Below, in pieces: positions 3,354-33,795 of a DNA stretch of 36,401 nt. This stretch comes from a virus: positions 1-36,401 of IMG/VR virus record IMGVR_UViG_3300011116_000555. One strand, given 5' to 3'. Numbering within the stretch: the stretch's first letter is position 1; each line of letters starts with the position of its first letter. A program made the position numbers and the translations under genes. The notes under the pieces are model-generated. The model searched no databases, had not been told where the DNA came from, and saw only the letters and a list, made by a program, of their open reading frames with translations.

Positions 3354-3576
3354 TTTTATTGGTTTGCCCATTGCCACCTTAAATTCCCTGCGTGATAAGT
3401 ATATTACTTGCTTGGAGGCAATTGCGGTGGCAGGTGCAAGTTATTCTATTGCTGGAAGATCATTCAGCAGGGCAAATTTATCTGAGGTGAGAGAGATTAT
3501 TGCAGAATTGACCATTGCAATTCAATCTGCATCTGGCACAAGAATCAGAACCACCTATGCAAAATTCGGCCCATGA
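3340..3576 (+). CDS. gpW-like head-to-tail joining protein
   Basis: A 78-residue helical protein with YSIAGRSFSRANLSEVREII near its middle, matching the helix-hairpin-helix plan of lambda gpW, which fits under the portal after packaging. It lies between terminase and portal, as W does in lambda. The frame can start at TTG 3334, but the ATG at 3340 has GAGGAG seven bases upstream and is preferred. Its start lies inside the terminase gene, 13 nt after a TTGACA. It overlaps the portal start by ATGA. Confidence 0.8.
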   Translation: MAKGDFIGLPIATLNSLRDKYITCLEAIAVAGASYSIAGRSFSRANLSEVREIIAELTIAIQSASGTRIRTTYAKFGP

Positions 3577-6500
3577 AGCTTAAACAGACATTCCTGGATA
3601 AGCTTGTTTCATTTGTAAATCCCCAGGCTGGGGTTCAGAGGCTGATGGCTAAAAAAGCCCTAACAAAATTTGAATATGATGCAGTGAAATACACCAGGGA
3701 AAGGCGGGGGCCGAGCAATCTATCTGGTGCAGAGGACTATAGATCAAATTATGATCGTGTAGAACTGATGAAGAGGGCAAGAGACCTGGCAGAAAACAAT
3801 GGCCTGGTTCGCTCCATCTTGATGAAGTTTGCAAGCCATGTTGCATCAAATATCACATACCAGGCCAGAACAGATAAGCCCAAGGTAAATACTGAAATTG
3901 AAGCCTATTGGAATCAGTGGTTTGAGAATTGTGACCTATCAACCAGACATACAGGCTCAACCCTTATGCAGGTTGCAACCATGTCCATGCTCCGCGATGG
4001 AGATTTTCTTTTTGTATTGGTCAGAGATAAAGATGGAGACTTGAGGCTCCAGGGAATTGAATCTGATAGACTCGGCGACCCTTACAAAACTTATACAAGC
4101 TTGGAGCTTATTGGTGGTATTCACATTGATAGAGGAACAGGAGCACCAACTGCCTATGATATTTATAATCGTAGCATTGGAGATTTTTATACATACCAGG
4201 CAACTATTCCAGCAAGCCAGGCATTCCACTATTTTGACCCACTTAGGATTGATCAATATAGGGGTGTGTCTGCTTTCCATACAGCCATAAATGATGCCAC
4301 TGATATTTATGATATTGTGAACTTTGAAAAACTGGCCGCAAAGGTTGCCAGTTCACAGAGTGCAGTTGTGAAAAGGTCGAACAATAATGCCTCTGACCTT
4401 AGTGCATTAACCACAGAGGAAAACTTTGATAATCAACAAATTAAGTTGGAATCAATGGAATCTGGAAAGGTTAGTTATCTTGAGCCTGGAGAGGACATTA
4501 TTTTCCCAGACGGCCCTAGCAGACCCAGTGGAGCCTTTGCAGAGTTCCATAAAATTTTGCTGAGAAACATTTGCATGGGGCTTGGAATCCCATACTCCTT
4601 TGCTGTCGACCCATCTGCAATGTCCGGCCCAACAGCCAGGCTTGAAATGCAACAGGCTGGAAGAACTTTCAACAGATACCAGAAGCTTCTTAATGATAAG
4701 GTTCTGAGCCCAATCAAGAACATTGTTATTGCTGATGCTGTAGCCAGGGGAATTATCAGTGGGAATGGAGCCAAAACAACCAAAGGCTTTTTCAACTTTG
4801 GAGCAAATGTCTCTATCGACCTTGGACGGGAATCTGCATCAGCTATTGCAGAGTTCAAGGCTGGACTGAGAACTGCTTCAGATATTTACTCTGAAAGGGG
4901 TATGGATGTTGAAGCCGCCTTTAGGGCAAGAGCTATTGAGACCAAAATGATTCAAGACCTGGCAAAGGAGTATGGAGTTCCAGCCCAGGCAGTTTCTGAA
5001 ATTCTACTTCCCACAGGCCAGCCAGCACAACAAGGCCAACCAGGGCAAACAACCCAAGATGGTCAGCAAGTGGATGGCCAAGAGGATGTTATTGGCCAGA
5101 GTCTTAATGGAGCCCAGGTTGCCTCTCTTATCAATGTTATCAATGCAGTTGCGGCTGGTGCATTGTCCAAAGAGGGTGCAGTTTCAGTTATCACAGCCGC
5201 CTTCCCAACTATTTCAAGGGAACAGGCCGTCGGAATTGTTGCTGGTGTGCAGTCTGGAAAAATCATTCCAACCACAGAAAAAGAAAAACAAGCTGTCCAG
5301 GATGGTCAAAAGGATGAAGGCCAGGGTGGGGCTCCAGTTCCAGAAACACCAAAAACCCCAGTTCCTCCAACAGGCCTGGAAGAATTAAAATGCCCACTAC
5401 CAACTCAAGACATAAAGCTTAATTTAGAGAACAGGCAAACAGCAGTTGATAAGGCCAACTACGGGCCAGCCAATCCAAATGAACCCAATGAGGACTATTG
5501 GAAGGCAAAGGCCAATGAGTTCCAGGGTGATGTTGCAACAGCAAAGAAAATGCTTTGTGGTAATTGTGCCGCATTCAATCAAACAAGCAGACTACTTGGT
5601 TGCATTAAAAATGGAATTGGTGAAGATGCCAATGAGGTGGCACTTGGTGGAGACCTGGGATATTGTGAAATTTTTGATTTCAAATGTGCGGCCAAAAGAA
5701 CCTGCGATGCCTGGATTGTTGGCGGCCCATTAACAGATAAAAAAAAAGAAACTGAGCAAGCTCTATCAAGTTTAAGCCAGCAAGAGCTTAAAATGCTCAT
5801 TGCTGGAATGATGGGTGGAATTGAGTTGGGCAAGTATGATGGCATTGATTTTACCCCACCAGAAGGGGCAAGATTGGCCGCCAAAAGGGCTTTGGCAGTA
5901 AGGGAACAGAAACCATCTAGTCAAAAGGGAATGACGCCTGTAGGCATAGCCAGAGCACGAGATTTGATCAATGGAGTTAAGTTCTCTCCAGATACCGTCC
6001 GCAGAATGAAGGCATTCTTCGATCGCCATGAGGTTGATAAGAAAGGTGAAACCTGGGACGACCAAGGCAAAGGATGGCAAGCCTGGAATGGATGGGGTGG
6101 AGATGCTGGGTATTCCTGGGCAAAGAAAGTAGTTGGCCAGATGGAATCTAGGGATAACAAACAATTGGCACGCCCAATTGCCCAAACACCAGCACCAGCC
6201 AAAGACAGAATCAAGGGCTCAGAGCAAAACAAACCCGGCTCTGCGGCAACTAAAAGCACAGGAGGCAAAATTGAGATTGGAGAAGGAACAGAAGAATCCA
6301 TTAAGAATAAACTAAAGGAATGGAAAGATAAGCACCCAAACAAGAAAGCTCCATCTCTTGGAACTCTAATGAAGGTATTCAGAAGAGGTGCTGGTGCTTA
6401 CTCAACAAGCCATAGGCCAACCATCTCTGGTGGGGCTCCAAATAGCCGCAATGCCTGGGCAATGGCCAGGGTTAATAAATTCTTAAAGATGGCAGGTGGT

Positions 6501-7973
6501 GGTGAAGTGAAGAAAAGCTATAGACAGGCAGACGGAGATTTGCTTGAGGCAATTACATCAAATACCAATCTTGCGGCTGGTGATGGGCTAAATCCTTGTG
6601 GCATGAAAGATGACGGAACTTTCGATGATGAAAATGAATGTGCTCAAGGCTATGGAAGGCCAAAACTTGTTGGTGGATATACCCCTAAAAGGCCTGGCGG
6701 AAAGATTCCGACAAAGCCAGTAAAGCCAACACCAACAGGAACAAAGCCAAAGCCACCACTTCCACCACCCCCTCCACCACCGTCCCCTACTGGTGGAACA
6801 AAGCCTACAGATGAAAAGGAATCTAAATTTCCAAATTCGAAAAAGGAATATGACAGCAGGGAAAAGGCATCTCTTGAATCAGCCATTAAAGGAAATCAAA
6901 AGGAACTTGATTCAGTAAGACAAGCAGTCATCAAAAAGTCAGAAGATACGCTAAAAGAAATAGATTCTGCAAAAAATAATATTGCTGAATCACAAAAACA
7001 ATTAGAGGAACTTAGAGCAAAAGCAAGACCCCTAAGAAATGAGGCTGAGCAATATAGAGAATCAGACCCCAAAAAGTATATTGAAATACGAAGAACACTA
7101 GACATTGAATATGCAAAAATTAATAAACTGGAGCAAAACATTGAAGAGCAAGAAAAAAAAATAAAAACAGCAAATGAAAAAGCCAGGCAAATTGGATTTG
7201 CTGAAATCAAAAAAGATATGCTGGCTGTAAATAAACAGGATGGATTCTCATCAGAGCAATTAGCAAAGGCAACCCAAGGGCTAAAAGAACAACAACAATC
7301 AGCAATTGTTAATGATCGCAAATCACTAAAAGATAGTGCTATTGAATATGTTAAGGCAAGAAGAGAAGCGGCACAAGGAGCATTAAGAGAGATATGCAAT
7401 CCAAACATTCACACTAAATCATTAACAAGGCCAGTTACATATTGGAATCAGAAAAGAGCAGATTCAACTGCAACAATAGTGCAGTTTGTAGATGGAACAA
7501 GAAATTCAACAGGTGGTGGAATAAGGGTTAGCATAGAGACAGAGACAAAAACCTATATGCATGAATATGGGCATCAAATTGAAGATGGAAATCCAGAAGC
7601 AAAAGACCTTTGCATGGAATTTCTTAATAAAAGAACTGCTGGAGAAAAGATTCAAAAGTTCCAAAAGACAATGCCAGGCTACGGCTACAAAAGATATGAA
7701 AAGGGTTCAGCAGATGGGTTTGGAAAGGCTCATGCAGAACTTTTTCCAGAATTTGATACAAATAATCGGGCATATTATACTGGCAAAAGATATGATGATC
7801 AACCTTTTGGAGCTAGTTCAAAGTATATTGGAGCAACAGAAGTTTATTCTATGGGAATGGAATTGCTTCACAGAAATCCAGCAAAGTTTGCCAAGATAGA
7901 CCCAGAGTGGTTTGATCTAGTTACTGGAATTGCAACAGGAAGATTGCTAAAGAAAACAAGAGGGGTAGAATAA
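3573..7973 (+). CDS. Portal protein fused to accessory modules and a C-terminal zincin-like domain
   Basis: A 1466-residue open frame. Residues 1 to about 480 are a lambda gpB-type portal (FDPLRIDQYRGVSAF, the ICMGLGIPYSFAVDPSAMSG region). Then follow a Gln-rich linker (about 485-510), a Cys-rich module from about 662 (CGNCAAF, DFKCAAKRTCDAW), a module with GKGWQAWNGWGGDAGYSWA near 830-850, a module with RRGAGAYSTSHRP near 935, a proline-rich hinge near 1050-1080, a charged coiled coil (about 1090-1250), and a C-terminal domain with HEYGH at 1330-1334 and a candidate third ligand E1423. Ordinary portals are about 450-550 residues. From about 6800 the DNA is markedly A-rich, suggesting that the last part was acquired. 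The extra modules are found in phage head proteins generally, but I do not know their functions. The C-terminus would sit inside the capsid. Confidence 0.9.
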   Translation: MKLKQTFLDKLVSFVNPQAGVQRLMAKKALTKFEYDAVKYTRERRGPSNLSGAEDYRSNYDRVELMKRARDLAENNGLVRSILMKFASHVASNITYQARTDKPKVNTEIEAYWNQWFENCDLSTRHTGSTLMQVATMSMLRDGDFLFVLVRDKDGDLRLQGIESDRLGDPYKTYTSLELIGGIHIDRGTGAPTAYDIYNRSIGDFYTYQATIPASQAFHYFDPLRIDQYRGVSAFHTAINDATDIYDIVNFEKLAAKVASSQSAVVKRSNNNASDLSALTTEENFDNQQIKLESMESGKVSYLEPGEDIIFPDGPSRPSGAFAEFHKILLRNICMGLGIPYSFAVDPSAMSGPTARLEMQQAGRTFNRYQKLLNDKVLSPIKNIVIADAVARGIISGNGAKTTKGFFNFGANVSIDLGRESASAIAEFKAGLRTASDIYSERGMDVEAAFRARAIETKMIQDLAKEYGVPAQAVSEILLPTGQPAQQGQPGQTTQDGQQVDGQEDVIGQSLNGAQVASLINVINAVAAGALSKEGAVSVITAAFPTISREQAVGIVAGVQSGKIIPTTEKEKQAVQDGQKDEGQGGAPVPETPKTPVPPTGLEELKCPLPTQDIKLNLENRQTAVDKANYGPANPNEPNEDYWKAKANEFQGDVATAKKMLCGNCAAFNQTSRLLGCIKNGIGEDANEVALGGDLGYCEIFDFKCAAKRTCDAWIVGGPLTDKKKETEQALSSLSQQELKMLIAGMMGGIELGKYDGIDFTPPEGARLAAKRALAVREQKPSSQKGMTPVGIARARDLINGVKFSPDTVRRMKAFFDRHEVDKKGETWDDQGKGWQAWNGWGGDAGYSWAKKVVGQMESRDNKQLARPIAQTPAPAKDRIKGSEQNKPGSAATKSTGGKIEIGEGTEESIKNKLKEWKDKHPNKKAPSLGTLMKVFRRGAGAYSTSHRPTISGGAPNSRNAWAMARVNKFLKMAGGGEVKKSYRQADGDLLEAITSNTNLAAGDGLNPCGMKDDGTFDDENECAQGYGRPKLVGGYTPKRPGGKIPTKPVKPTPTGTKPKPPLPPPPPPPSPTGGTKPTDEKESKFPNSKKEYDSREKASLESAIKGNQKELDSVRQAVIKKSEDTLKEIDSAKNNIAESQKQLEELRAKARPLRNEAEQYRESDPKKYIEIRRTLDIEYAKINKLEQNIEEQEKKIKTANEKARQIGFAEIKKDMLAVNKQDGFSSEQLAKATQGLKEQQQSAIVNDRKSLKDSAIEYVKARREAAQGALREICNPNIHTKSLTRPVTYWNQKRADSTATIVQFVDGTRNSTGGGIRVSIETETKTYMHEYGHQIEDGNPEAKDLCMEFLNKRTAGEKIQKFQKTMPGYGYKRYEKGSADGFGKAHAELFPEFDTNNRAYYTGKRYDDQPFGASSKYIGATEVYSMGMELLHRNPAKFAKIDPEWFDLVTGIATGRLLKKTRGVE

Positions 7974-11992: not shown

Positions 11993-13648
11993 ATGAAACA
12001 CGACCTTTCAATTTACTTAATCTCTGGAAATGAGGAAGCCTATATTGCCAGGTGTCTGGAATCATTTAAGCCAATGGCAGAAGAGTTTATTATTTGCATC
12101 GCTAGGGGGAGCCTTGAGGCAGACAAAACAGAAGAGATCGCATTGGCTCACGGCGCTAGAATTGTTCATTATAAAAATAAAAACAATGATTGGAATCATG
12201 TAGATGATTTTGCCTCTGCCAGGAATACTGCCCTAGAGGCTTGCAAGAATGAATGGGCTTTGTGGGTAGATGCTGATGATGTGATGCAACCAGGGGCAGA
12301 AACCCTGGTGGACAATGCCATTGAGGAGGCAAACAAAAGAGGAGCAGATTTGATTGCCTTTAGATACGATGTTCAAAATGCTGGCCTTATCCCGCTGAGA
12401 GAAATGGCCAGCAGAAAAGGCAAATGCAAGTGGAGGAACAGGGTTCATGAGGCTCTTGTTGCGAATGAGCCAGATAAGCTTTTTGGTGTGGACAAGGTGG
12501 TTAGGATTCACAAGCCACATGGCTATAAAAAAGCTTCAGCAGAAAGAAATTTCACAATTCTAAAAGACACCCTGGAGCCAGCCCCCAACTCCCTTTATTA
12601 CACACAGCAAGAATATTTCCTTACAATGAACTTTGAAAAATGCCTGGAGTTTGGTGAAATGGCATTAATGTTCAAAGACCTTGATGATACTCTGAGATAT
12701 GAAGTTCTTTGCAATATGGGCAGATGTGCAAAGCCAGAGAACAGGCTGAAATATCTTGGCCAGGCAATTGCCCTCCAGCCAGATAGAAGAGAGGCACACT
12801 ATTGGACAGCATTGGAATATGCTGGAAGGGGTCAATGGGCTAAAGCCTGGGGCTCTGCCAGGGCGGCCATGAGCTTACCAAGACCAGCTTCACACTACTG
12901 GAACCAGGTAGAAGCCATCTATGGGTGGCAATCAATAGACCTTTATGAGACTGCTTCTGCTTGTGTTGGCAAGGCTGATGAGGTGGCAAAGATGAAGAAG
13001 ATAAAGCCAGCCCCAAGAATAACCATGGTTCATGCAACCAAGGGAAGACCGCAGGTTGCCTGGCAGAGAAGGTTTCAGTGGCTTTCATTGGCTGAAAAAC
13101 CTATGGAAGTTGAATGGTTATTCATGGTTGATCATGATGACCCAATTGATTACACGCCCCACCAGGCCATTAGATGCAATCCTGGTGGCATTATCAATGC
13201 TTGGAACCAGGGTGCAAAACTAGCCAATTCAGACATCATTGTGCAGATGTCTGATGATTGGGCTCCACCAAGACACTGGGATGCCTCTATTTGCTCTTTA
13301 ATTGGCTCTAAAAACACCGATCAAGTGCTGGCCATATCAGATGGCTACAGAACAGATAAACTGCTCTGTATGGCTATTCTAAACAAAAAGAGGCTTGAGA
13401 CCCAGGGTGGATGGTTATTCCATCCAGACTACCAGGATTCAGATGGGCTGTATTCAGATAATGAGTTCACAGAAAGAGCCTATGCCGACCAGGTTGTTGT
13501 TGAGGCAAAGGACTTGAAGTTTACTCATGAGAACCCAATTCACACTGGCAAAGAAGCAGACAAGCAACTGATTCACCACAACAAGCCAGAGTTTTATGAA
13601 AAAGGCAAAGCCATCTATGACAAAAGAAAAGCAAACAACTGGGCTTAA
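11993..13648 (+). CDS. Two-domain GT2-type glycosyltransferase with TPR-like middle
   Basis: A 551-residue protein. The N-terminal GT-A domain has SIYLISGNEEAYIARCLESF and the DxD motif in WVDADDV (D93/D95). The middle (about 200-335) is helical and TPR-like (REAHYWTALEYAGRGQWAKAW). A second GT-A-like domain (about 340-551) has VHATKGRP, MVDHDDP and MSDDWAPP. GT2 enzymes move sugars from nucleotide-sugars to an acceptor. There are no membrane helices. It heads a run of five tightly packed glycan genes and is preceded by two AAATCCT boxes. The acceptor is unknown: host surface polysaccharide or virion protein are both possible. Confidence 0.85.
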   Translation: MKHDLSIYLISGNEEAYIARCLESFKPMAEEFIICIARGSLEADKTEEIALAHGARIVHYKNKNNDWNHVDDFASARNTALEACKNEWALWVDADDVMQPGAETLVDNAIEEANKRGADLIAFRYDVQNAGLIPLREMASRKGKCKWRNRVHEALVANEPDKLFGVDKVVRIHKPHGYKKASAERNFTILKDTLEPAPNSLYYTQQEYFLTMNFEKCLEFGEMALMFKDLDDTLRYEVLCNMGRCAKPENRLKYLGQAIALQPDRREAHYWTALEYAGRGQWAKAWGSARAAMSLPRPASHYWNQVEAIYGWQSIDLYETASACVGKADEVAKMKKIKPAPRITMVHATKGRPQVAWQRRFQWLSLAEKPMEVEWLFMVDHDDPIDYTPHQAIRCNPGGIINAWNQGAKLANSDIIVQMSDDWAPPRHWDASICSLIGSKNTDQVLAISDGYRTDKLLCMAILNKKRLETQGGWLFHPDYQDSDGLYSDNEFTERAYADQVVVEAKDLKFTHENPIHTGKEADKQLIHHNKPEFYEKGKAIYDKRKANNWA

Positions 13649-13650
13649 AT

Positions 13651-14259
13651 ATGCAAGAAGTAACCATTAACGATTCATTTGGAGGGGCAATGGCCAGGTA
13701 TAGCTATGGCCTAGATGTTGGCTTGGAGATTGGTGGGGGAACTGGAGATGGCTCCACTCAGTGCATCAGAACAAAAAAGCTTTTCTCAATTGAAAACCAC
13801 CCAGATAGGGTTGGAAGGCATAGAATGAACCTTGAGCTAAAGGGTGGAGTTTCAATCCAGGGAACAGCAGTTATTCCTAGTTTATGGATGAACAAGAAAG
13901 ATGTTGAAGAGTTTTATAGAACTACAAAAACAAACTTAAACCAATACCCAGTTGAACAGGTTTTGGGCTGGTATGATGAGTGCCTGGAAACAGCCAAGCC
14001 ATATAAGACAAGTTCCATTGAGGACATCAGTGTTGAGCATAATGTAAATTTCAACTTTGTGCTTATTGATGGCTCACCATTCTCTGGTGAAGCAGAGCTT
14101 CGGTGTGTAAGGCCATTCTTGGCAGAGAAAGCAATCATTGCCCTGGACGACATAAACGACATTAAAAATTGGACTAACTACCACAAGCTAAAAGGCTTTG
14201 CCAAACTGCTGTGGGAGGATTGGTCTGTGCGGAATGGAGCCGCTATTTTTGGACTATGA
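13651..14259 (+). CDS. SAM-dependent methyltransferase-like protein
   Basis: A 202-residue protein with a class I methyltransferase plan: motif I GLEIGGGTGDGSTQCI (about 30-45), the acidic ribose-binding position in FSIENHPDR, and a motif IV-like FVLIDGSPFSGEAELR followed by IIALDDINDI. This resembles O-methyltransferases of the Methyltransf_24 kind used in glycan tailoring. It overlaps the next gene by ATGA. The substrate is unknown; the surrounding glycosyltransferases suggest a sugar. Confidence 0.7.
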   Translation: MQEVTINDSFGGAMARYSYGLDVGLEIGGGTGDGSTQCIRTKKLFSIENHPDRVGRHRMNLELKGGVSIQGTAVIPSLWMNKKDVEEFYRTTKTNLNQYPVEQVLGWYDECLETAKPYKTSSIEDISVEHNVNFNFVLIDGSPFSGEAELRCVRPFLAEKAIIALDDINDIKNWTNYHKLKGFAKLLWEDWSVRNGAAIFGL

Positions 14260-14768
14260 TTAAAGGAGTAATTACATCAGAAGCCCCACAAATTCACTGG
14301 GAACATCTCAATGTTACTGGAGGCAGGGTTCTAGATTTAGGATGTGCATTCTGGACACAGGCAGAAAGAGAAGAGGGGAATGGAACAGCCAAATATTTTC
14401 TGTCTCAAAAGCCAGAGTTTTACATGGGAGTGGACATTAACCAGGGGGACATAACAACCCTTTCAGAGCAATACCCAGAAGGAAAGTTCATCTGTGAAAA
14501 GGCAGATTCAGCATTTCAAATGGATTCCTGGATAACTGAAAATTCAATTACCCATGTTAAATGCGACATTGAGGGAGATGAGGCGCATCTCTTGCAGATT
14601 GGTAATATTCACAATCTAAAAGAGATTGCCATTGAGCTACACTATTCAGATGCCTGGCTAAATGAATTCATGGATTGGTTCAAGTCTATTGGCTTTGAGT
14701 GTTACAGGCATGACTCAGTTTCTTTCTGCTCAGAAATCAGTGTTATATATGGCAGACTAAAATGCTGA
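14256..14768 (+). CDS. FkbM-like methyltransferase
   Basis: A 170-residue protein from the ATG overlapping the previous stop; longer upstream starts would lie inside that gene. It shows motif I (GRVLDLGCAFWTQAE), the acidic MGVDINQGD position and the FkbM-type HVKCDIEGDEAHLLQIG box, where the E-G-D/A-E pattern is characteristic. FkbM-type enzymes O-methylate sugars and are frequent in polysaccharide clusters. It is somewhat shorter than the usual family (about 200-250). Confidence 0.7.
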   Translation: MIKGVITSEAPQIHWEHLNVTGGRVLDLGCAFWTQAEREEGNGTAKYFLSQKPEFYMGVDINQGDITTLSEQYPEGKFICEKADSAFQMDSWITENSITHVKCDIEGDEAHLLQIGNIHNLKEIAIELHYSDAWLNEFMDWFKSIGFECYRHDSVSFCSEISVIYGRLKC

Positions 14769-15532
14769 CAATCTTTACCATTGTTCTCAATGGGATGCCA
14801 TACATCAACAGGCATCTTGATGAGTTCAAGAAGCTAAAGATTCCATGGCAGTGGAAGATTGTGGAGGGAGTTTCAGAGCCACTTGGATGCACCAGGTGGT
14901 GCAAGCAGGTTCCAGACAAATGGCACAAGAACTTTGTTAGTGTGGATGGAACCCATGAATATCTAAATAGCCTAAATGAACCTAATGTTTCAGTTTATTG
15001 GCAAGCTAAACCATTTCCAGGGAAATTGGCGATGATTAAAGAGGCTTTGCAGGGAGTAGAAAAAGGGGTGGTAATGGAGATTGATGCTGATGAAATGTGG
15101 AGAGCAGACCAGCTAGATGCAATTTATGGACATCTGAAGGGATGTGAAGAGGGTCGTGCAATGCAGTTTCATTGTAATTATTATGTTGGGCAAAACAAAA
15201 AGGTTGTGACTAGGCAGGGCTTTGGCTCCAACTGGTATGAGTGGTTCAGAGCCTGGAAGTGGGGGAAGAGCATTGAGTTTATAAGCCATGAGCCACCAAA
15301 GCTAAATGTGAATGGTCTTATGATTCCAAGGGGAATGACAGAAGCCTGGGGATTAACCTTTGAGCATTTTGCCTATACAACCAGGGAGCAAGTGCAATTC
15401 AAGGAAGATTTCTATGGATACAAGGGGCTGGTTGAAGGATGGGAAAAGCTACAGCAAACCAATGGGCCGGTAAGGCTTTCAGATTATATGCCATTTGTAG
15501 CAGACAAGAGTGTCGCTGATGACTCAGCCTAG
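14762..15532 (+). CDS. GT-A-type glycosyltransferase-like protein
   Basis: A 256-residue protein beginning LTIFTIVLNGMPYINRHLDE, the typical first strand of a GT2-like fold, with a DxD-type motif in VVMEIDADEMW (near residue 110). The C-terminal half is rich in aromatic residues (NWYEWFRAWKWGKSIEFISH), likely the acceptor side. It overlaps both neighbours, placing it in the glycan operon. Confidence 0.75.
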   Translation: MLTIFTIVLNGMPYINRHLDEFKKLKIPWQWKIVEGVSEPLGCTRWCKQVPDKWHKNFVSVDGTHEYLNSLNEPNVSVYWQAKPFPGKLAMIKEALQGVEKGVVMEIDADEMWRADQLDAIYGHLKGCEEGRAMQFHCNYYVGQNKKVVTRQGFGSNWYEWFRAWKWGKSIEFISHEPPKLNVNGLMIPRGMTEAWGLTFEHFAYTTREQVQFKEDFYGYKGLVEGWEKLQQTNGPVRLSDYMPFVADKSVADDSA

Positions 15533-16196
15533 AACCATAAAATACAGCCAAAGGCTTGGGGATGTTCTCAGATGCCTTCCAGCCTGTAAATATTTGGCAG
15601 ATCAGGGGCATGAGGTGTTTTTTGATTGCTATGCCCAATATCATGGGGTCTTTGAAATGGTTTCCTATGTAAAGGCTGGACATAGACAGGGGGTAACCAT
15701 TGACCTGGAGATTTGGCCTAATAGGTATGAGGAGTTTATAAAGAGCAAAAAGACATGGCATGACTTTGTGTATTCCCATAACTCAATCAAGGATGCAGAT
15801 AAAACTAACATTATCCTGGACAGACTAGATAAAGCACCAGCAGAAGGGCTCCCCACAAATTATGTCTTGGTTGCACCATTTGGAATAAGCCAATCATACA
15901 AAAGAGACCCAGTTGTAATTATACAGGATGCAGTTAGAGAATTTGGCAGAGATAATATTATTATTTTATGCCCAGAGGGAGCATCAATCCAAGGGCTCAG
16001 AACCTATACAGCACCAACAATTCAAGATATGGCAAAGGCCATTAGGGATGCAGAAGAGTTCCTGGCCGTAAATTCAAGCCCAATCATCCTGGCGTCTGCC
16101 GTAAGGAATGGCAAAACAAGCAGACTTTATGGAGAGAAATTTGAGCATAAAGTTCAGAATGTCTTTGATTTTGAGGGGCTTGTAATAATAGATTGA
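15519..16196 (+). CDS. GT-B, heptosyltransferase-like (GT9-type) protein
   Basis: A 225-residue protein. The N-terminal RLGDVLRCLPACKYLADQG is the GT9 (ADP-heptose transferase) opening; the second half has YVLVAPFG and EFLAVNSSPIILASA, matching the nucleotide-sugar-binding half of that family. It is shorter than bacterial heptosyltransferases (about 320-350), so it is a minimal or diverged member. The ATG at 15519 is chosen over GTG 15510; both overlap the preceding gene. It is the last of the glycan cassette. Confidence 0.65.
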   Translation: MTQPRTIKYSQRLGDVLRCLPACKYLADQGHEVFFDCYAQYHGVFEMVSYVKAGHRQGVTIDLEIWPNRYEEFIKSKKTWHDFVYSHNSIKDADKTNIILDRLDKAPAEGLPTNYVLVAPFGISQSYKRDPVVIIQDAVREFGRDNIIILCPEGASIQGLRTYTAPTIQDMAKAIRDAEEFLAVNSSPIILASAVRNGKTSRLYGEKFEHKVQNVFDFEGLVIID

Positions 16197-16533: not shown

Positions 16534-16950
16534 ATGGCATCTATTGAAAGAGAGGTTGAGAATGGGCTTCTCAATGCTGTCTCTGCTGTAACTGGTCTGA
16601 ATGCCTATACAAGTGAAAGAGGAGAGGCAAGGCTTTTGCCAAACATGGTGGCTCAAGCACAGATTGGGTCTGAGGTTCTCGGCCCATTTACAGGTGTTTT
16701 TAGTGTTCCAGCAACCATTACATATACAGCCAGGGCAGACTCAACAACCAGGGTGGCATTCGATGCCAAGTTCCAAGACATCATGAACCAGCTTTACAGG
16801 TCTCCAGACCTTCCAACATATATGACAAATGTGTCCAGCATCTCAGTTTATGTTGCTAAGGTAACAAGTGAAAGCCCTCAGATCATTGCCCAGAATAGAA
16901 CCTGGTCAAAAACAATCACCCTGGACATAAGTGCAACAGCTAAAAAATGA
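16534..16950 (+). CDS. Tail completion-like protein, copy 1
   Basis: A 138-residue protein with a helical start (EREVENGLLNAVSAVTGLNA), a beta core (GVFSVPATITYTARADSTT), a helix (FDAKFQDIMNQLYRSPDL) and an end ITLDISATAKK. It aligns by eye along its whole length with the next gene, so the two are tandem paralogues. Size and position suggest tail terminator or completion proteins (lambda U/Z region). It overlaps the next gene by ATGA. Confidence 0.65.
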   Translation: MASIEREVENGLLNAVSAVTGLNAYTSERGEARLLPNMVAQAQIGSEVLGPFTGVFSVPATITYTARADSTTRVAFDAKFQDIMNQLYRSPDLPTYMTNVSSISVYVAKVTSESPQIIAQNRTWSKTITLDISATAKK

Positions 16951-17369
16951 GCCAATCAATCCAGCTTAACCTAGAGAATGCCATTGCAAGCATTCTGTCT
17001 AGTGTGTCTAATGTTAATGTTTATACAGCTAATCGTGTTGGGGCTAGGCTTTACCCATTTGTAACTATCCAGGCATCTATTAACTCCCAGCTTCTTGGGA
17101 ACTATACTGGTGTCTATGATTTGAATGTTCTGGTGAACTACTCAGACACTGCTGATAAGATTACCCAGGATGACTTTGATTCAAAGTATTGTGATGTATT
17201 TAATGCATTCTATGAGCAAACGCCAACACTGGTAGCCAAGATTCAGAATGTAATAGCCAATACAAAGGTCTTTATGGCCAGGATTGTAAGCCAGACACCA
17301 TCTATAAGAACAGATAAGGATGCCTGGCAAAGAGGCTTAACACTGAATGTTTATGCAACACCACAATGA
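16947..17369 (+). CDS. Tail completion-like protein, copy 2 (paralogue)
   Basis: A 140-residue protein paralogous to the gene before it: ENAIASILSSVSNVNVYTAN matches ENGLLNAVSAVTGLNAYTSE; LLGNYTGVYDLNVLVNYS matches VLGPFTGVFSVPATITYT; RGLTLNVYATPQ matches KTITLDISATAK. Divergence is large at DNA level, so the duplication is old. The two may form a hetero-oligomeric ring or serve two positions of the neck. Confidence 0.65.
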   Translation: MSQSIQLNLENAIASILSSVSNVNVYTANRVGARLYPFVTIQASINSQLLGNYTGVYDLNVLVNYSDTADKITQDDFDSKYCDVFNAFYEQTPTLVAKIQNVIANTKVFMARIVSQTPSIRTDKDAWQRGLTLNVYATPQ

Positions 17370-17905: not shown

Positions 17906-18259
17906 ATGCCCGCAACGACTATTGGACAACCCGGATTGGTTTTCGGGGCAACTACTGAAGGAATTGGACTTATTCAAAGCTTCAGTGAAACTCGCAACAT
18001 TGAGAAAAGTGAAATTCGCGATCGGACTGGCGACATCGTTGGTATTGCATATTACAATGCAACCACTGGATACAGCCTCTCTGTTGCTGTAACTGGTGCT
18101 TATGCTGTGACTGCTGGAGCCGCCCTGGCCGCCCTAGCTAATGCAACCACAGCAGTTGGCACTGGCTCGCTTCGCATTGACTCCATCACTATTAACAAGA
18201 GCAATGATGCCTTTGTTACCTTGGACATCAGTGCCACTGGATACCCTAACGTAAGTTAA
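17906..18259 (+). CDS. Probable major tail (tube) protein
   Basis: A 117-residue beta-rich protein (GLVFGATTEGIGLIQSFSET, then RIDSITINKSNDAFVTLDIS). It lies shortly before the G/GT frameshift pair and tape measure, where tube proteins belong. Its codon use is closer to the capsid gene (GCC, ATC, GAC, CGC), consistent with high expression, and it has the best ribosome site of the region (AAAGGAG, with TTGACAT just before it). It is shorter than most tube proteins. Confidence 0.65.
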   Translation: MPATTIGQPGLVFGATTEGIGLIQSFSETRNIEKSEIRDRTGDIVGIAYYNATTGYSLSVAVTGAYAVTAGAALAALANATTAVGTGSLRIDSITINKSNDAFVTLDISATGYPNVS

Positions 18260-18300: not shown

Positions 18301-18678
18301 ATGGAAGGCCATACTTACTGGGGAACAACAAATCTCAAGGTTGCATCTGCTGTTGCGGCCTTTGGTGCAAAGCCTAGACCTGTCGATCCTGTAACCAGGG
18401 TAATTAAAGATGGACAGCAACAAGTAACATTCTGGTTTATATCTGATGGCAATGGAGATGTTGCAAAAAAGGAAATGGAGAGAACATGGGCAGATATGCA
18501 ATCTGATGAGGAATCTCCAATTAGATATGTTAGAGCGGCCTTAGAGAACCGAGAAACATTGTTAGGGCTCGTTAAGAGAGCAGAGCCGATTAGAATTATC
18601 CAGGTAGGTGGGCAAACCCTCATGGTGCCGGAGAATGCCAGCCCAGAAAGAAAGAAGGCACTTTTAAGACATATATGA
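18301..18678 (+). CDS. Unknown protein upstream of the tail assembly chaperone
   Basis: A 125-residue protein. The front is beta (GTTNLKVASAVAAFGAKPRP), then comes a charged helix with ADMQSDEESPIRYVRAALEN, and an end with MVPENASPERKKALLRHI. No family recognised. It overlaps the following tail chaperone by ATGA, and its place between tube and chaperone suggests a tail assembly role. Confidence 0.65.
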   Translation: MEGHTYWGTTNLKVASAVAAFGAKPRPVDPVTRVIKDGQQQVTFWFISDGNGDVAKKEMERTWADMQSDEESPIRYVRAALENRETLLGLVKRAEPIRIIQVGGQTLMVPENASPERKKALLRHI

Positions 18679-19052
18679 ATGACATCCTAGAAGAAGCATT
18701 GGAATCAGCCTTTGTGACTCCAGAAAAGCAGTTCAAGGGTGAATCCCTTGCACCATATACAGAGGGCTCAAGGCTATTGATGATACAGGCTAGGAGTGAT
18801 GAGGACTCAACGCAGTTCTTTATTTGGGCTTTTATATTCCTTCATATTAAGCTTAATAAAAACAGAAAAGAAGCCATTAGGCTCTGCTGGAACAAAGACC
18901 TATTTAGAGAATCAATTCTTGATTGGATTGTAGACAAAACAGAATCAGACAGGGAAACTGCAAGCAGTCTGGTTGCATCCATTCTTGATGAAGCAAACAG
19001 GGGACAGGTTGAGCCTATCCCAACCCCAGGGGCAACAGCCCAGGGAAACTGA
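18675..19052 (+). CDS. Tail assembly chaperone, short (G-like) form
   Basis: A 125-residue, mostly helical protein (EEALESAFVTPEKQFKG, then FFIWAFIFLHIKLNKNRKEA). Position before the tape measure and size match lambda gpG, which coats the tape measure during tail assembly. It ends at TGA 19050-19052, immediately after the slippery heptamer GGGAAAC, so a minority of ribosomes should read on in the -1 frame. Confidence 0.75.
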   Translation: MNDILEEALESAFVTPEKQFKGESLAPYTEGSRLLMIQARSDEDSTQFFIWAFIFLHIKLNKNRKEAIRLCWNKDLFRESILDWIVDKTESDRETASSLVASILDEANRGQVEPIPTPGATAQGN

Positions 19053-19258
19053 CACAGCCAACGGGCATAGCGGCCTCTGTATTCTCGTTGGCACAAAGGA
19101 CAGGTTGGAGCATAGATTACATTATGTGGGAGCTTCCAATCAGCTTATTCCACCAGGCAAACCATGTTCATCTGTGGATGTCTGGAGTTAAGTTGAGAAG
19201 AAGGGCTTATCTAGAGACTACAAATATTGAGGAACTTGAAAAACAGCTAGGCTTATGA
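18675..19258 (+). CDS. Tail assembly chaperone, frameshifted (GT-like) form
   Basis: GGGAAAC (19043-19049) lies in the zero frame as G-GGA-AAC directly before TGA. After a -1 slip reading continues from CTG at 19049 through an open frame to TGA 19256-19258, adding 69 residues (total 194), including IAASVFSLAQRTGWSIDYIM and ending NIEELEKQLGL. The added part has the Trp/aromatic-rich look of T domains. The -1 frame is closed upstream by TGA at 19010, so it can hardly be translated on its own. Lambda uses GGGAAAG for the same switch. The stop overlaps the next ATG (ATGA). Confidence 0.85.
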
Positions 19259-19974
19259 GCTTCAAACTAGATACCAGGCAATTTGAAAGAAGGCTCCAGC
19301 AGTATGTTCCACTGGCAAGAAAGGACATAACCAATGAGCTTAATAGGCGTTCTGCCAATATCCTCATGAAGGCCATTGTTAATACAGAAAAGGCAAGCCT
19401 GGGGGCTCTAAGGTCGTTCTTTTCAAGGACTGCAACGGTGATGAGAGCAAGAACAAACAAGAAAACAGGCATAACCAAGATTACAAAGCCAAGGCAGAAG
19501 GTTGTTCATGGAACCATGGATGGCTATAGAATAGCTAACTATAGAAGGAACATAAGGCTTGGAAGAAGGCCAACAGGCAACCCTCCTGGTGGTGGATTGG
19601 GTGGAGCCTCAATGAAGGCATACATAAGGAAAACATTCAAAGCCCTGGGCAGTGCAGTTGGTTATTTGAAGTCTGGCTGGTTGCCAGCATTAAGAGTTTT
19701 TAAGCAGTCTGGAGGAGCAAAGGATTCTGCAAAATTAAGGGGCAAAAAGGGAACAGCAAGCTTTGGTGGTGGTGTAAAAGCTACTCCAGGTGAAACCATG
19801 AGAACCTATTTTTACTCGACAGCCAACCCAAGGACATTTGCAAAGGGGCCGGTTTCCATTGAAACCAGGCTAAATACAGCACTACAAAAGGCTGTAGATG
19901 AAGAGACAGAAGATATGATGGTCTATATCTTCAGAAAAATACAGGAGAGGGCTGACAAGAGCTTAATGTCATGA
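19255..19974 (+). CDS. Basic minor tail protein
   Basis: A 239-residue, strongly basic protein (KLDTRQFERRLQQYVPLARK; RTNKKTGITKITKPRQKVVH) with a Gly-rich stretch (NPPGGGLGGAS) and GYLKSGWLPALRVFKQSG, reminiscent of HK97 gp10-type or gpZ-like neck proteins. Position between the chaperone and tape measure is unusual for those, but its overlap with both (ATGA) ties it to tail assembly. Confidence 0.6.
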   Translation: MSFKLDTRQFERRLQQYVPLARKDITNELNRRSANILMKAIVNTEKASLGALRSFFSRTATVMRARTNKKTGITKITKPRQKVVHGTMDGYRIANYRRNIRLGRRPTGNPPGGGLGGASMKAYIRKTFKALGSAVGYLKSGWLPALRVFKQSGGAKDSAKLRGKKGTASFGGGVKATPGETMRTYFYSTANPRTFAKGPVSIETRLNTALQKAVDEETEDMMVYIFRKIQERADKSLMS

Positions 19975-21383
19975 AGAAGGTCGCAGAGGGAGAGTTGCTA
20001 ATTCACACCCAGAAATCTGGGCAGAATGTTGATAGGCTTAGACAATACCTAGCAAGCCTTAGGGCTGAATCACAGAGAACAAGTGTTGGAATGGATGACC
20101 TGGCAAAAAGCATATTGCAAGCAGGGGCAAGGGGATTGTCTTTAGGCAAGATAGTTAAGGGGTTAGCTGGCGCGGCTGGATTTGGTGGCTTTGGTGTAGC
20201 GGCATATCTTGCAATTGATAAAATGACCAAGGGGCTAATTGATGCCCAAGAGGAATCAGACAAGCTTGCAGAGACATTAAATAAAGCAGTTGGAGCCAGG
20301 GCCGGAGATAGCATTGAGGGAACCATCCAAAAAATGCAGTCTCTCACAACTGCAATAAATGAAAGCAAGACTGCAATTGGCAACCAGGGTGTTATGAACT
20401 CTATAGCCGCATTCTTCTTTAATGACGATGCAGATAAGGCGGCCAAGGCTTTTGAAAAGGCAGTGGAAACCAGGATTGCACTTGGAGATAAACTTACAAA
20501 GCAAGAGGCAGAAAGAATTGCACAGCAAAAAATCATCATGGACTTAGATGATGAAATGGCTGAAGTCTTTAAGATCAACATTGAGACAAGAAAGAAGCTT
20601 GGCCAGATTGAAAGCAACGATGCCCTTACTTCACAGCAAAAGCTTGAACAGGCTGACTTGGCCAGAGAAGAACAGGCAGATAAGCTAAGATCATTAAGAC
20701 TTAAAAAATCCAAGGAAACAGACAAGAAGATTGCTGAAGAAAAAAAGAAAACTGATGAGGATTCTGCAAGACTTTCAATAAAAATTACAGACAGCCTAAT
20801 TAAACAAGAAGAGGCATTGTTTGAAAAGGGAGTTAAAGACTTCAAGGACTCTCAGGAAGAAAAGATTAAAGCCGCTGAAGAGGCTAATAGACAACTTGTA
20901 GCGGCATCAAAAAAGGCAATAGATAAAGTTAAAGAACAGGATGACCAGGCAAGAAAGGACACTGAAGATACCGTTGGAGGTGATGTGGGTGTTCTCCTGG
21001 CATCTAAGGCAGGTTCACAGGCGTTAGATCAAGCAAGAAAGGTAAGGGCTCAAAAGAATCCGCAGGAAAATTTTAGAACTCAAGAGGCAATATTATCATC
21101 AGAGGCAGAAAGGCTTTCAAAAGCTGAAGGCAAAAAAGTAACCATGCAAGATGTTAGGGTTAGAATGGCAACAAGAGTGGCGGCCACTGAGATGCCAACC
21201 TTGGGAGAAAAGCTTGCAGGGACAGCGGCCGGCATTGAGCCAGCACAGGTTGCAAGGAGCAGGTCTGAAGCAGTAATGGCAAGCAACAAGCAGGGAGCCC
21301 CAGACATCATGAAATCTATTGAAACAATCCTTAACAAGCTTTCATCTGCACCACTTGTTACATCTGGCGCTGGAGGTTCATAA
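19971..21383 (+). CDS. Tape measure protein
   Basis: A 470-residue protein. After a basic start it has a Gly/Ala-rich hydrophobic segment (GLAGAAGFGGFGVAAYLAI, near 65-83), then about 250 residues of charged coiled coil (EQADKLRSLRLKKSKETDKK) and a C-terminal helical region. This is the plan of tape measures that set tail length and line the tube. At roughly 1.5 angstrom per residue it would give a short tail near 70 nm; this estimate uses the general rule only. Confidence 0.75.
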   Translation: MKKVAEGELLIHTQKSGQNVDRLRQYLASLRAESQRTSVGMDDLAKSILQAGARGLSLGKIVKGLAGAAGFGGFGVAAYLAIDKMTKGLIDAQEESDKLAETLNKAVGARAGDSIEGTIQKMQSLTTAINESKTAIGNQGVMNSIAAFFFNDDADKAAKAFEKAVETRIALGDKLTKQEAERIAQQKIIMDLDDEMAEVFKINIETRKKLGQIESNDALTSQQKLEQADLAREEQADKLRSLRLKKSKETDKKIAEEKKKTDEDSARLSIKITDSLIKQEEALFEKGVKDFKDSQEEKIKAAEEANRQLVAASKKAIDKVKEQDDQARKDTEDTVGGDVGVLLASKAGSQALDQARKVRAQKNPQENFRTQEAILSSEAERLSKAEGKKVTMQDVRVRMATRVAATEMPTLGEKLAGTAAGIEPAQVARSRSEAVMASNKQGAPDIMKSIETILNKLSSAPLVTSGAGGS

Positions 21384-31628: not shown

Positions 31629-32062
31629 TCAGCAATATTGAGATGGCACTTCCAGCTACAATCTACAGGGTTGCAGAACTTGAAAAGAAGATTGAAGAAC
31701 TGATGCAGAAAATTGATACATCAAACAACAGCTTGGGAGCCCAGATTACCCAGATTAAATCATGCATGGTGCTCAAGCATTCAGTTCCAAATGAAGAGTG
31801 TAGGATTGCAAACATTGTAGTTCCAGAAGAGCTTTCCTATTCAAAAGGAAAGAAGTTCAAAAAGGGAAAGACAATGTGCAGGGCAACAGCCAACAAAAAC
31901 TCAGAGATTGTTGCTAGGCGTTGGGCATTGTGGAAAGACCAATACAATGCTGGCATACCCGCATCAGTCATTGCCAGGGCATGGGGTTGTGACCACACCA
32001 CAATTCTCAATGCCAGGGACATGAACTGGATTAACTACAAACCAAAGGGGATAAAAAAATGA
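31625..32062 (+). CDS. DnaA-domain-IV-like DNA-binding protein
   Basis: A 145-residue protein with an N-terminal coiled coil (RVAELEKKIEELMQKIDTSN) and a C-terminal domain (about 98-135) with VARRWALWKDQYNAG, SVIARAWGCDHTTILNA. The latter matches the DnaA domain IV signature (G-R-D-H-T-T-V-L-H-A), which binds DnaA boxes. There is no AAA+ domain. The ATG overlaps the previous stop, and a longer frame from 31598 is not needed. Confidence 0.7.
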   Translation: MISNIEMALPATIYRVAELEKKIEELMQKIDTSNNSLGAQITQIKSCMVLKHSVPNEECRIANIVVPEELSYSKGKKFKKGKTMCRATANKNSEIVARRWALWKDQYNAGIPASVIARAWGCDHTTILNARDMNWINYKPKGIKK

Positions 32063-32533: not shown

Positions 32534-32924
32534 ACAGGCCAACTTATTTGGTGGAGAGCTTGAGCCAGACCAGGGTGATTCAAAGTATTCATCAAAGATA
32601 GAGGCTCCTATCTATGAGCCAAAGAACAAGAAGCCTCACCTGCTTGAACTGGTTGATATTGCAAAATCAAACAGCCTAATTAGGGAGATTCTTGCATCAG
32701 ACATTCCACAAGATGTGAAGGAGTTTCTGATTGAGGCGGCCAAGAGGCATAGTGTGTTCAATTATGAAAAGATTGCAGACTACTATGCTCATGCCACGCC
32801 AGAGGTTCAGCATCTAATGGAGAAGTCTGCCCTGGTTATCATAGACTTCGGGAAGGCCATTCAAAATGGATATGTGAAGCTTTGTGATGAGATAAGGAGC
32901 CAATATCTTGAGCAAACAGAATGA
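32517..32924 (+). CDS. Conserved phage protein, unknown
   Basis: A 135-residue protein starting at GTG, with GGGAGG six bases upstream. The C-terminal part (REILASDIPQDVKEFLIEAA; KIADYYAHATPEVQHLMEKS; LVIIDFGKAIQNGYVKL) is a recurring phage block that I associate with ParB-like and base-modification neighbourhoods, but its function is unknown to me. It is directly followed by the GREB1/TAGT-like glycosyltransferase. Confidence 0.6.
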   Translation: MDGIHKQANLFGGELEPDQGDSKYSSKIEAPIYEPKNKKPHLLELVDIAKSNSLIREILASDIPQDVKEFLIEAAKRHSVFNYEKIADYYAHATPEVQHLMEKSALVIIDFGKAIQNGYVKLCDEIRSQYLEQTE

Positions 32925-33795
32925 TTTTGCCATCTTCATCCTAACCCACGGCAGACCAACCAATGTAAAGACCATGGCAACCCTTCAGAGGGCTGGCTAC
33001 ACTGGAAAGCTTTACCTGGTTGTGGATGATGAGGACAAGACCCTGGACAAATACATTGCCAACTTTGGCAAGGATAGGGTTGTGGTATTCAACAAGAAGC
33101 AGTTGGCAGACCAGGTTGATGAAGGCAACAACTTTGATGAGAGAAGGACAATCACTCATGCCAGGAATGCCTGTTTCCAAATAGCCAAGGACAAGGGGCT
33201 GAAGTTCTTTATGGAGTTAGATGATGACTACATATCTTTTGAATACAGATATGTAAGCAGGTGTGGTGAGAAGCTTAATGTTCACAGGATAACAAACCTG
33301 GACAGCATTCTTGGGCTCTACCTTGAGTTTTATAAAGCAACAGGGTTCTTTAGCATAGCCTTTGCCCAGGGTGGAGACTTCATTGGTGGTGTTGAAAATA
33401 GATATGCCACTAAGAAGCCATTGATCAGAAAATGCATGAACTCATTCATCTGCTCTCCAGATAGGCCATTCCAATTTATTGGTGCAATGAATGAGGATGT
33501 GAATACCTATGTGACCCTTGGCTCAAGGGGGACAATGTTTGGAACCATCCCAATGATAAGCCTGGTTCAGACAGCTACCCAGAGCCAGAAAAACGGTATA
33601 ACTGATATGTATCTGAGGTTTGGAACATACTGCAAGGCTTTCACTACGGTGATGATGCACCCATCCAGTGTTAGAATTTCTATGATTAACACCAGCAACC
33701 CCAGGATTCACCATCTTATTAAGTGGCAGAACACAACCCCAATGATTGTCTCAGAGGAGCATAAGAAGCCAGTGTGTGTAAGTTGTGACAAATAA
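32908..33795 (+). CDS. GREB1/TET-associated-type glycosyltransferase-like protein
   Basis: A 295-residue protein starting at TTG with AAGGAG eight bases before; an ATG 12 bases on is out of frame. FAIFILTHGRPTNVKTMATL, KLYLVVDDEDKTLDKYIANF, a HARNACFQIAKDKG helix and FMELDDDYISFEYRY are the motifs of the GT-A fold seen in GREB1-like and TET/JBP-associated glycosyltransferases. Those phage enzymes are proposed to glucosylate oxidised bases in DNA. No TET/JBP dioxygenase is visible here, so the acceptor is uncertain. The gene stands in the replication block, apart from the other glycosyltransferases. Confidence 0.7.
   Translation: MSKQNDFAIFILTHGRPTNVKTMATLQRAGYTGKLYLVVDDEDKTLDKYIANFGKDRVVVFNKKQLADQVDEGNNFDERRTITHARNACFQIAKDKGLKFFMELDDDYISFEYRYVSRCGEKLNVHRITNLDSILGLYLEFYKATGFFSIAFAQGGDFIGGVENRYATKKPLIRKCMNSFICSPDRPFQFIGAMNEDVNTYVTLGSRGTMFGTIPMISLVQTATQSQKNGITDMYLRFGTYCKAFTTVMMHPSSVRISMINTSNPRIHHLIKWQNTTPMIVSEEHKKPVCVSCDK

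Follow-up and report, generated by a model that had tools for sequence, protein, structure and literature searches.

The window analysed here is the virus record IMGVR_UViG_3300011116_000555 itself, with a length of 36,401 bases. Its genes include those for terminase, a major head protein, and a portal of the lambda family. The portal domain occupies residues 56-370 of a 1466-aa ORF (3573-7973), in which about 1000 more residues follow; this ORF also has weaker PHROG matches, a minor head protein among them. The features of the putative tail module that are relevant to the frameshift are as follows.

17906-18259, + strand: probable tail tube protein, 117 aa (predicted fold and Foldseek)
18301-18678, + strand: conserved 125-aa gene between the tail tube gene and G, function unassigned (81 of 81 loci)
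18675-19052, + strand: G-like ORF, zero-frame product of 125 aa (ORF; related ORFs in all 81 loci tested)
19028-19032, + strand: SD-like AGGGG, possible stimulator, 10 nt before the heptamer (window's clade only)
19043-19049, + strand: slippery heptamer G_GGA_AAC (all 123 distinct relatives have a heptamer in the correct phase)
19050-19052, + strand: zero-frame stop TGA, abutting the heptamer (sequence)
19050-19056, + strand: spacer of 7 nt between heptamer and hairpin (fold)
19049-19258, + strand: T-like extension in the -1 frame, 69 codons past the slip plus the stop (open frame)
19057-19065, + strand: 5' arm of the predicted hairpin, 9-bp outer stem (MFE fold and covariation)
19084-19092, + strand: 3' arm of the same hairpin (MFE fold and covariation)
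19255-19974, + strand: gene for a 239-aa product, situated after GT and before the candidate tape measure gene (ORF list and locus comparison)
19971-21383, + strand: candidate tape measure protein, 470 aa (position and size only)

The heptamer GGGAAAC at 19043-19049 is read as GGA AAC in frame 0, and TGA is the next codon. The -1 frame is closed by a TGA at 19010-19012, is open from 19013 onwards, and ends with the TGA at 19256-19258, which overlaps the ATG of the next gene at 19255. The frameshifted GT product comprises 194 aa. The positions, the phase, and the limits of the -1 frame had been given in an earlier, sequence-only reading of the window, and all of them hold on re-reading of the sequence. 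Transcriptional slippage was considered as well and judged unlikely, the site being devoid of a long homopolymer run.

The chance level of such sites was estimated within the window. In-phase heptamers (Y = A or T) occurred 13 times per 4540 codons of nine genes. Both strands were then scanned for the full pattern, namely a phase-correct heptamer (Y = A or T) at most 30 nt from a zero-frame stop, with 60 or more open codons on either side of this stop, those after it in the -1 frame. This pattern was found at two places, one of which is the G/T site. At the other (32053-32062), an A7 run stands directly before the stop and the -1 frame is open for 91 codons; the gene downstream is equipped with an SD-like AAGGGG and with an ATG of its own (32059), and the place probably represents ordinary overlapping genes. 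Given this frequency of in-phase heptamers and the two occurrences of the full pattern, the window site taken singly is weak, suggestive evidence. Conservation across loci, not the single site, is the decisive argument for a frameshift, as read from the sequences compared below.

Relatives were collected in scans with G, which gave 18 loci and then 149 relatives, the best 80 of which were kept. A second G alignment added 80 of 151 relatives and the T alignment 80 of 106; these sets overlap in contigs. The full set comprised 241 loci (L019-L259). Both parts were found in 237 of them (L048, L082, L119, and L229 were dropped); comparison of T together with the last 150 nt of G reduced these to 123 distinct loci. 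These 123 loci are mutually related and do not count as independent events.

The T part was located in the -1 frame in all 123 distinct loci, G and T were never joined in one ORF, and a phase-correct heptamer was present next to the stop in every case. The heptamers were GGGAAAC (116 loci), GGGAAAA (3), CCCAAAC (3), and GGGAAAT (1). A readable subset of 81 cases, made up of the window, L019, and the 79 loci of L020-L099 other than L082, which extends beyond its contig, gave 77 distinct ones with GGGAAAC in 72, GGGAAAA in 3, GGGAAAT in 1, and CCCAAAC in 1. In the CCCAAAC form, all three X bases are altered together, by which the X_XXY_YYZ rule is retained and the peptide changed. The last base of the heptamer, Z, is C in 119 of the 123 distinct loci and G in none. 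The zero-frame stop follows the heptamer with no gap in 14 of these loci, the immediate stop being a trait of the window's clade, and stands 3 nt (one codon) after it in the other 109. The sequence-only reading had proposed to compare the heptamer in relatives and would have been rejected if close relatives lacked either the heptamer or the open -1 frame; both are retained in all 123.

The T region contains no stops in the -1 frame in any of 75 distinct loci with a complete T, while frame 0 of the same loci has 3-11 stops per locus. In pairs of more than 60% identity, 6747, 4022, and 13879 differences fell on the first, second, and third codon positions of the -1 frame, respectively, so that change is third-position-rich. 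Together with the start codons considered below, this comparison shows the -1 extension to be under protein-level selection and dependent on the shift.

A hairpin absent from the earlier reading was identified downstream of the slip site; its stem begins 7 nt past the heptamer. The fold z-score of 60 nt taken from 5 nt after the heptamer, calculated against dinucleotide shuffles, had a median of -2.33, and 49 of 75 values were below -2. The medians at five control offsets were between -0.12 and 0.25. The window's own hairpin displays modest values (-1.17 and -2.25 in two computations). Rfam matches in the window numbered zero.

Covariation was examined in a gapless alignment of 56 distinct 66-mers. 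In a 13-pair stem, 92.2% of cells were paired, as compared to 31.3-51.4% with the partners slid by 1 to 3 columns, and double-change cells numbered 53 versus 14.6 in shuffles. Further pair types (15 versus 14.4 shuffled) and pairs changed on both sides (6 versus 4.3, with 47 of 500 shuffles as high) were not outstanding in this stem. RNAalifold independently recovered 11 of its pairs. The lower (first) six pairs form, with compensatory changes, in every one of 83 distinct 66-mers; the pair at offsets 19/44, for example, is CG in 55, GC in 25, and GT in 3 of these. Since the six lower pairs are formed throughout and with compensatory changes, the heptamer, the 7-nt spacer, and the covarying hairpin are, on comparative grounds, a complete -1 frameshift element. 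A pseudoknot between the loop and downstream sequence was rejected within the 66 nt tested, the best 5-bp helix being formed in 17% of the 83 sequences.

An SD-like stimulator is located upstream of the slip site in the dnaX frameshift. The AGGGG in the window lies 10 nt before the heptamer, which we take to be a dnaX-like distance. Within this motif, the Gly119 codon is GGG in all 14 sequences of the window's clade, in which just 21 of 81 residue-invariant codons are codon-invariant. SD cores precede 19 of 46 gene starts, versus 16% of 876 other ATGs. It is possible, for the window's clade only, that AGGGG stimulates the frameshift; as a family-wide feature the SD-like stimulator was rejected, the motif having been seen by eye in this clade only.

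The -1 frameshift itself is strongly supported by these comparisons, namely by a heptamer class that never varies, by conservation of the -1 product, and by the covarying hairpin at a fixed spacing. The claim of a programmed -1 frameshift at GGGAAAC thus found support. We consider it highly probable (about 0.9) that this element yields a tail-assembly chaperone pair on the lambda G/GT plan. The identity of the pair as G/GT-type tail chaperones is supported by the architecture and by the tail-tube-like gene upstream. With regard to the GT-type chaperone proposed earlier, architecture and position agree with the proposal, and homology of sequence or fold adds no support, as no known chaperone family or fold was matched.

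In lambda-type pairs, G is made in large excess over GT, and neither is part of the virion; the binding partner of G is the tape measure protein, and that of T is the tube protein. By the same scheme, most ribosomes at the present site would read GGA-AAC and stop at TGA, giving the 125-aa G-like protein, whose zero-frame sequence is directly readable. A minority would pause as the hairpin, 7 nt downstream, comes up against the mRNA entry, and both tRNAs would slip back by one base, from GGA-AAC to GGG-AAA. Translation would then go on for 69 codons in the -1 frame, resulting in the 194-aa GT-like protein; use of this frame is evident from the comparison of loci, and the ratio of the two products is presumed. 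On the lambda model, the role of the G part would be to coat the tape measure protein, and that of the T part to recruit tail tube subunits.

The surroundings of the pair bear on the second most probable explanation, according to which the frameshift is real and the products are not tail chaperones but some other protein pair kept at a fixed ratio. We regard this as improbable, though it has the protein searches on its side: neither G nor T matched known tail-assembly chaperones in sequence or fold. Pfam and PHROG were searched with G, T, GT, and their neighbours, with no convincing result for G or T; T members weakly matched PHROG 11996, which has no assigned function (10 of 14 members, best E 0.0014). 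The G model is good (pLDDT 84.3), fold searches with it revealed no PDB relative, and its best viral fold match, at TM 0.70, was one unnamed phage protein. Searching the PDB by sequence with the alignments of G and of the tail tube protein returned only chance-like rows, the best for G being a designed helical repeat protein (E 0.0006). Against this explanation, low similarity among G/GT pairs is normal (PMC5009743, excerpt), and the site lies in a tail module after the tail-tube-like gene. All four of the genes compared were found in 39 of the 81 loci examined, and each of these 39 has them in the order tail tube, 125-aa gene, G, and candidate tape measure.

The tail-tube-like gene (17906-18259) is conserved in 79 of these 81 loci. 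The AlphaFold2 model of its 117-aa product is of low confidence (pLDDT 63.5). A siphophage tail tube protein topped the Foldseek list obtained with this model (E 0.003 and above), and most of the top rows were chains from the tail tube, neck, or baseplate of phages and related particles, including lambda tube protein V. VIA-align gave a mixed picture, with ribosomal S24e scoring as high as tail proteins. The model suggests that this product is probably a tail tube protein. The 470-aa product of 19971-21383 gave no family match and is a candidate tape measure protein by position and size only. One gene (19255-19974) sits between GT and this candidate.

Separate synthesis of T by internal initiation or termination-coupled restart, with no slippage, is less probable still. 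Starts that could serve it exist in the -1 frame of the window, namely TTG at 19088 and later ATGs. However, this TTG, the first ATG, GTG, or TTG of the frame, lies inside the conserved T domain, and two loci with a complete T, L064 and L068, list no such codon in the -1 frame (nor does L048, in which T is cut off). Separate initiation of T is unlikely for these reasons, and a restart would leave the invariant heptamer and the hairpin unexplained. Sequencing error or a decayed gene, for which no supporting point was found, is refuted, since all 123 distinct loci, which come from many samples, share this frame break at the same site.

The slip site of lambda is GGGAAAG. The present locus differs from lambda in having GGGAAAC, in the lack of a sequence match, and in the gene between GT and the candidate tape measure. 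The likeness consists in a -1 shift near the end of G, an extended product, and the location in the tail module; lambda G/GT is described as a -1 frameshift near the G end with a C-terminally extended minor product, G_GGA_AAG being highly shift-prone in E. coli and G/GT pairs being widely conserved despite low sequence similarity (PMC5009743, excerpt). The closest parallel is Burkholderia phage KL1, in which GGGAAAC of gp18/gp19 stands immediately upstream of the TGA of the shorter product, a downstream stem-loop is predicted, and a tail gene intervenes between the frameshift pair and the tape measure gene, an arrangement also reported for HK97 (PMC3483164, excerpt). All three features, GGGAAAC abutting TGA, the intervening gene (here ahead of the candidate tape measure gene), and the downstream stem-loop, recur here. 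The products differ in size, with 125 and 194 aa here and 142 and 264 aa in KL1 (PMC3483164, excerpt); homology to KL1 was gauged only indirectly, by a tblastn search of the phage collection with GT from the window, which gave no match.

GGGAAAC is also the slip site of the tape-measure chaperone of Caulobacter phage Colossus (PMC3556154, excerpt) and of g-t in the archaeal virus HCTV-1 (PMC5009743, excerpt). Both have the same heptamer at the G/GT position; they belong to other phages and hosts and are likened to the present locus by slip site and position. Annotation of such genes is common: PRFect reported a joined frameshift gene in 2476 of 3679 SEA-PHAGES genomes (PMC10885494, excerpt). 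The novelty implied in the earlier reading, GGGAAAC in place of GGGAAAG with an immediate stop, does not persist, as both traits occur in KL1 (PMC3483164, excerpt) and the heptamer also in Colossus and HCTV-1. With the precedents of KL1, Colossus, HCTV-1, and lambda and with annotation being common, the system is of a known kind. The G/GT frameshift plan and GGGAAAC-TGA were already known, and the added value lies in the comparative depth and in a phage family with no match in the records searched.

A tblastn search with GT against 50,697 phage records gave no match, and no paper on the present phage family was noticed among those listed by literature searches, which is not proof of absence. 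Neither the G alignment nor the terminase brought up a relative encoded in the bacterial and archaeal genome contigs scanned, and therefore no host was found. G, T, the probable tail tube, and the candidate tape measure are now marked in a family of uncultivated phages without a GT match among the phage records searched. The locus also offers an alignment-backed bacteriophage -1 frameshift element, whose slip site, spacer, and hairpin are all readable from 123 distinct loci. We tentatively suggest, with considerable doubt, that this lineage is unrelated in sequence to catalogued chaperones, that slippage, hairpin pausing, and release-factor competition together set G:GT, and that its host slips on AAC more readily than E. 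coli. If so, Z = C, the hairpin at a fixed 7 nt, and the stop within one codon would act together on the G:GT ratio. Whether slippage depends on the host can be tested by way of the preference in the last base (C, never G).

Several other genes of the window deserve mention. The adjacent genes 16534-16950 and 16947-17369, which were without PHROG match at the limits used, encode products that by eye resemble paralogues of each other. A block of glycosyltransferase- and methyltransferase-like genes, mostly judged by eye, occupies 11993-16196 between the head and tail genes; within it, 11993-13648 matches PHROG glycosyltransferases. The gene at 32908-33795 has a strong PHROG match annotated as beta-glucosyl-HMC-alpha-glucosyltransferase (E 3e-63), a name of the DNA-modification type that could hint at modified bases.
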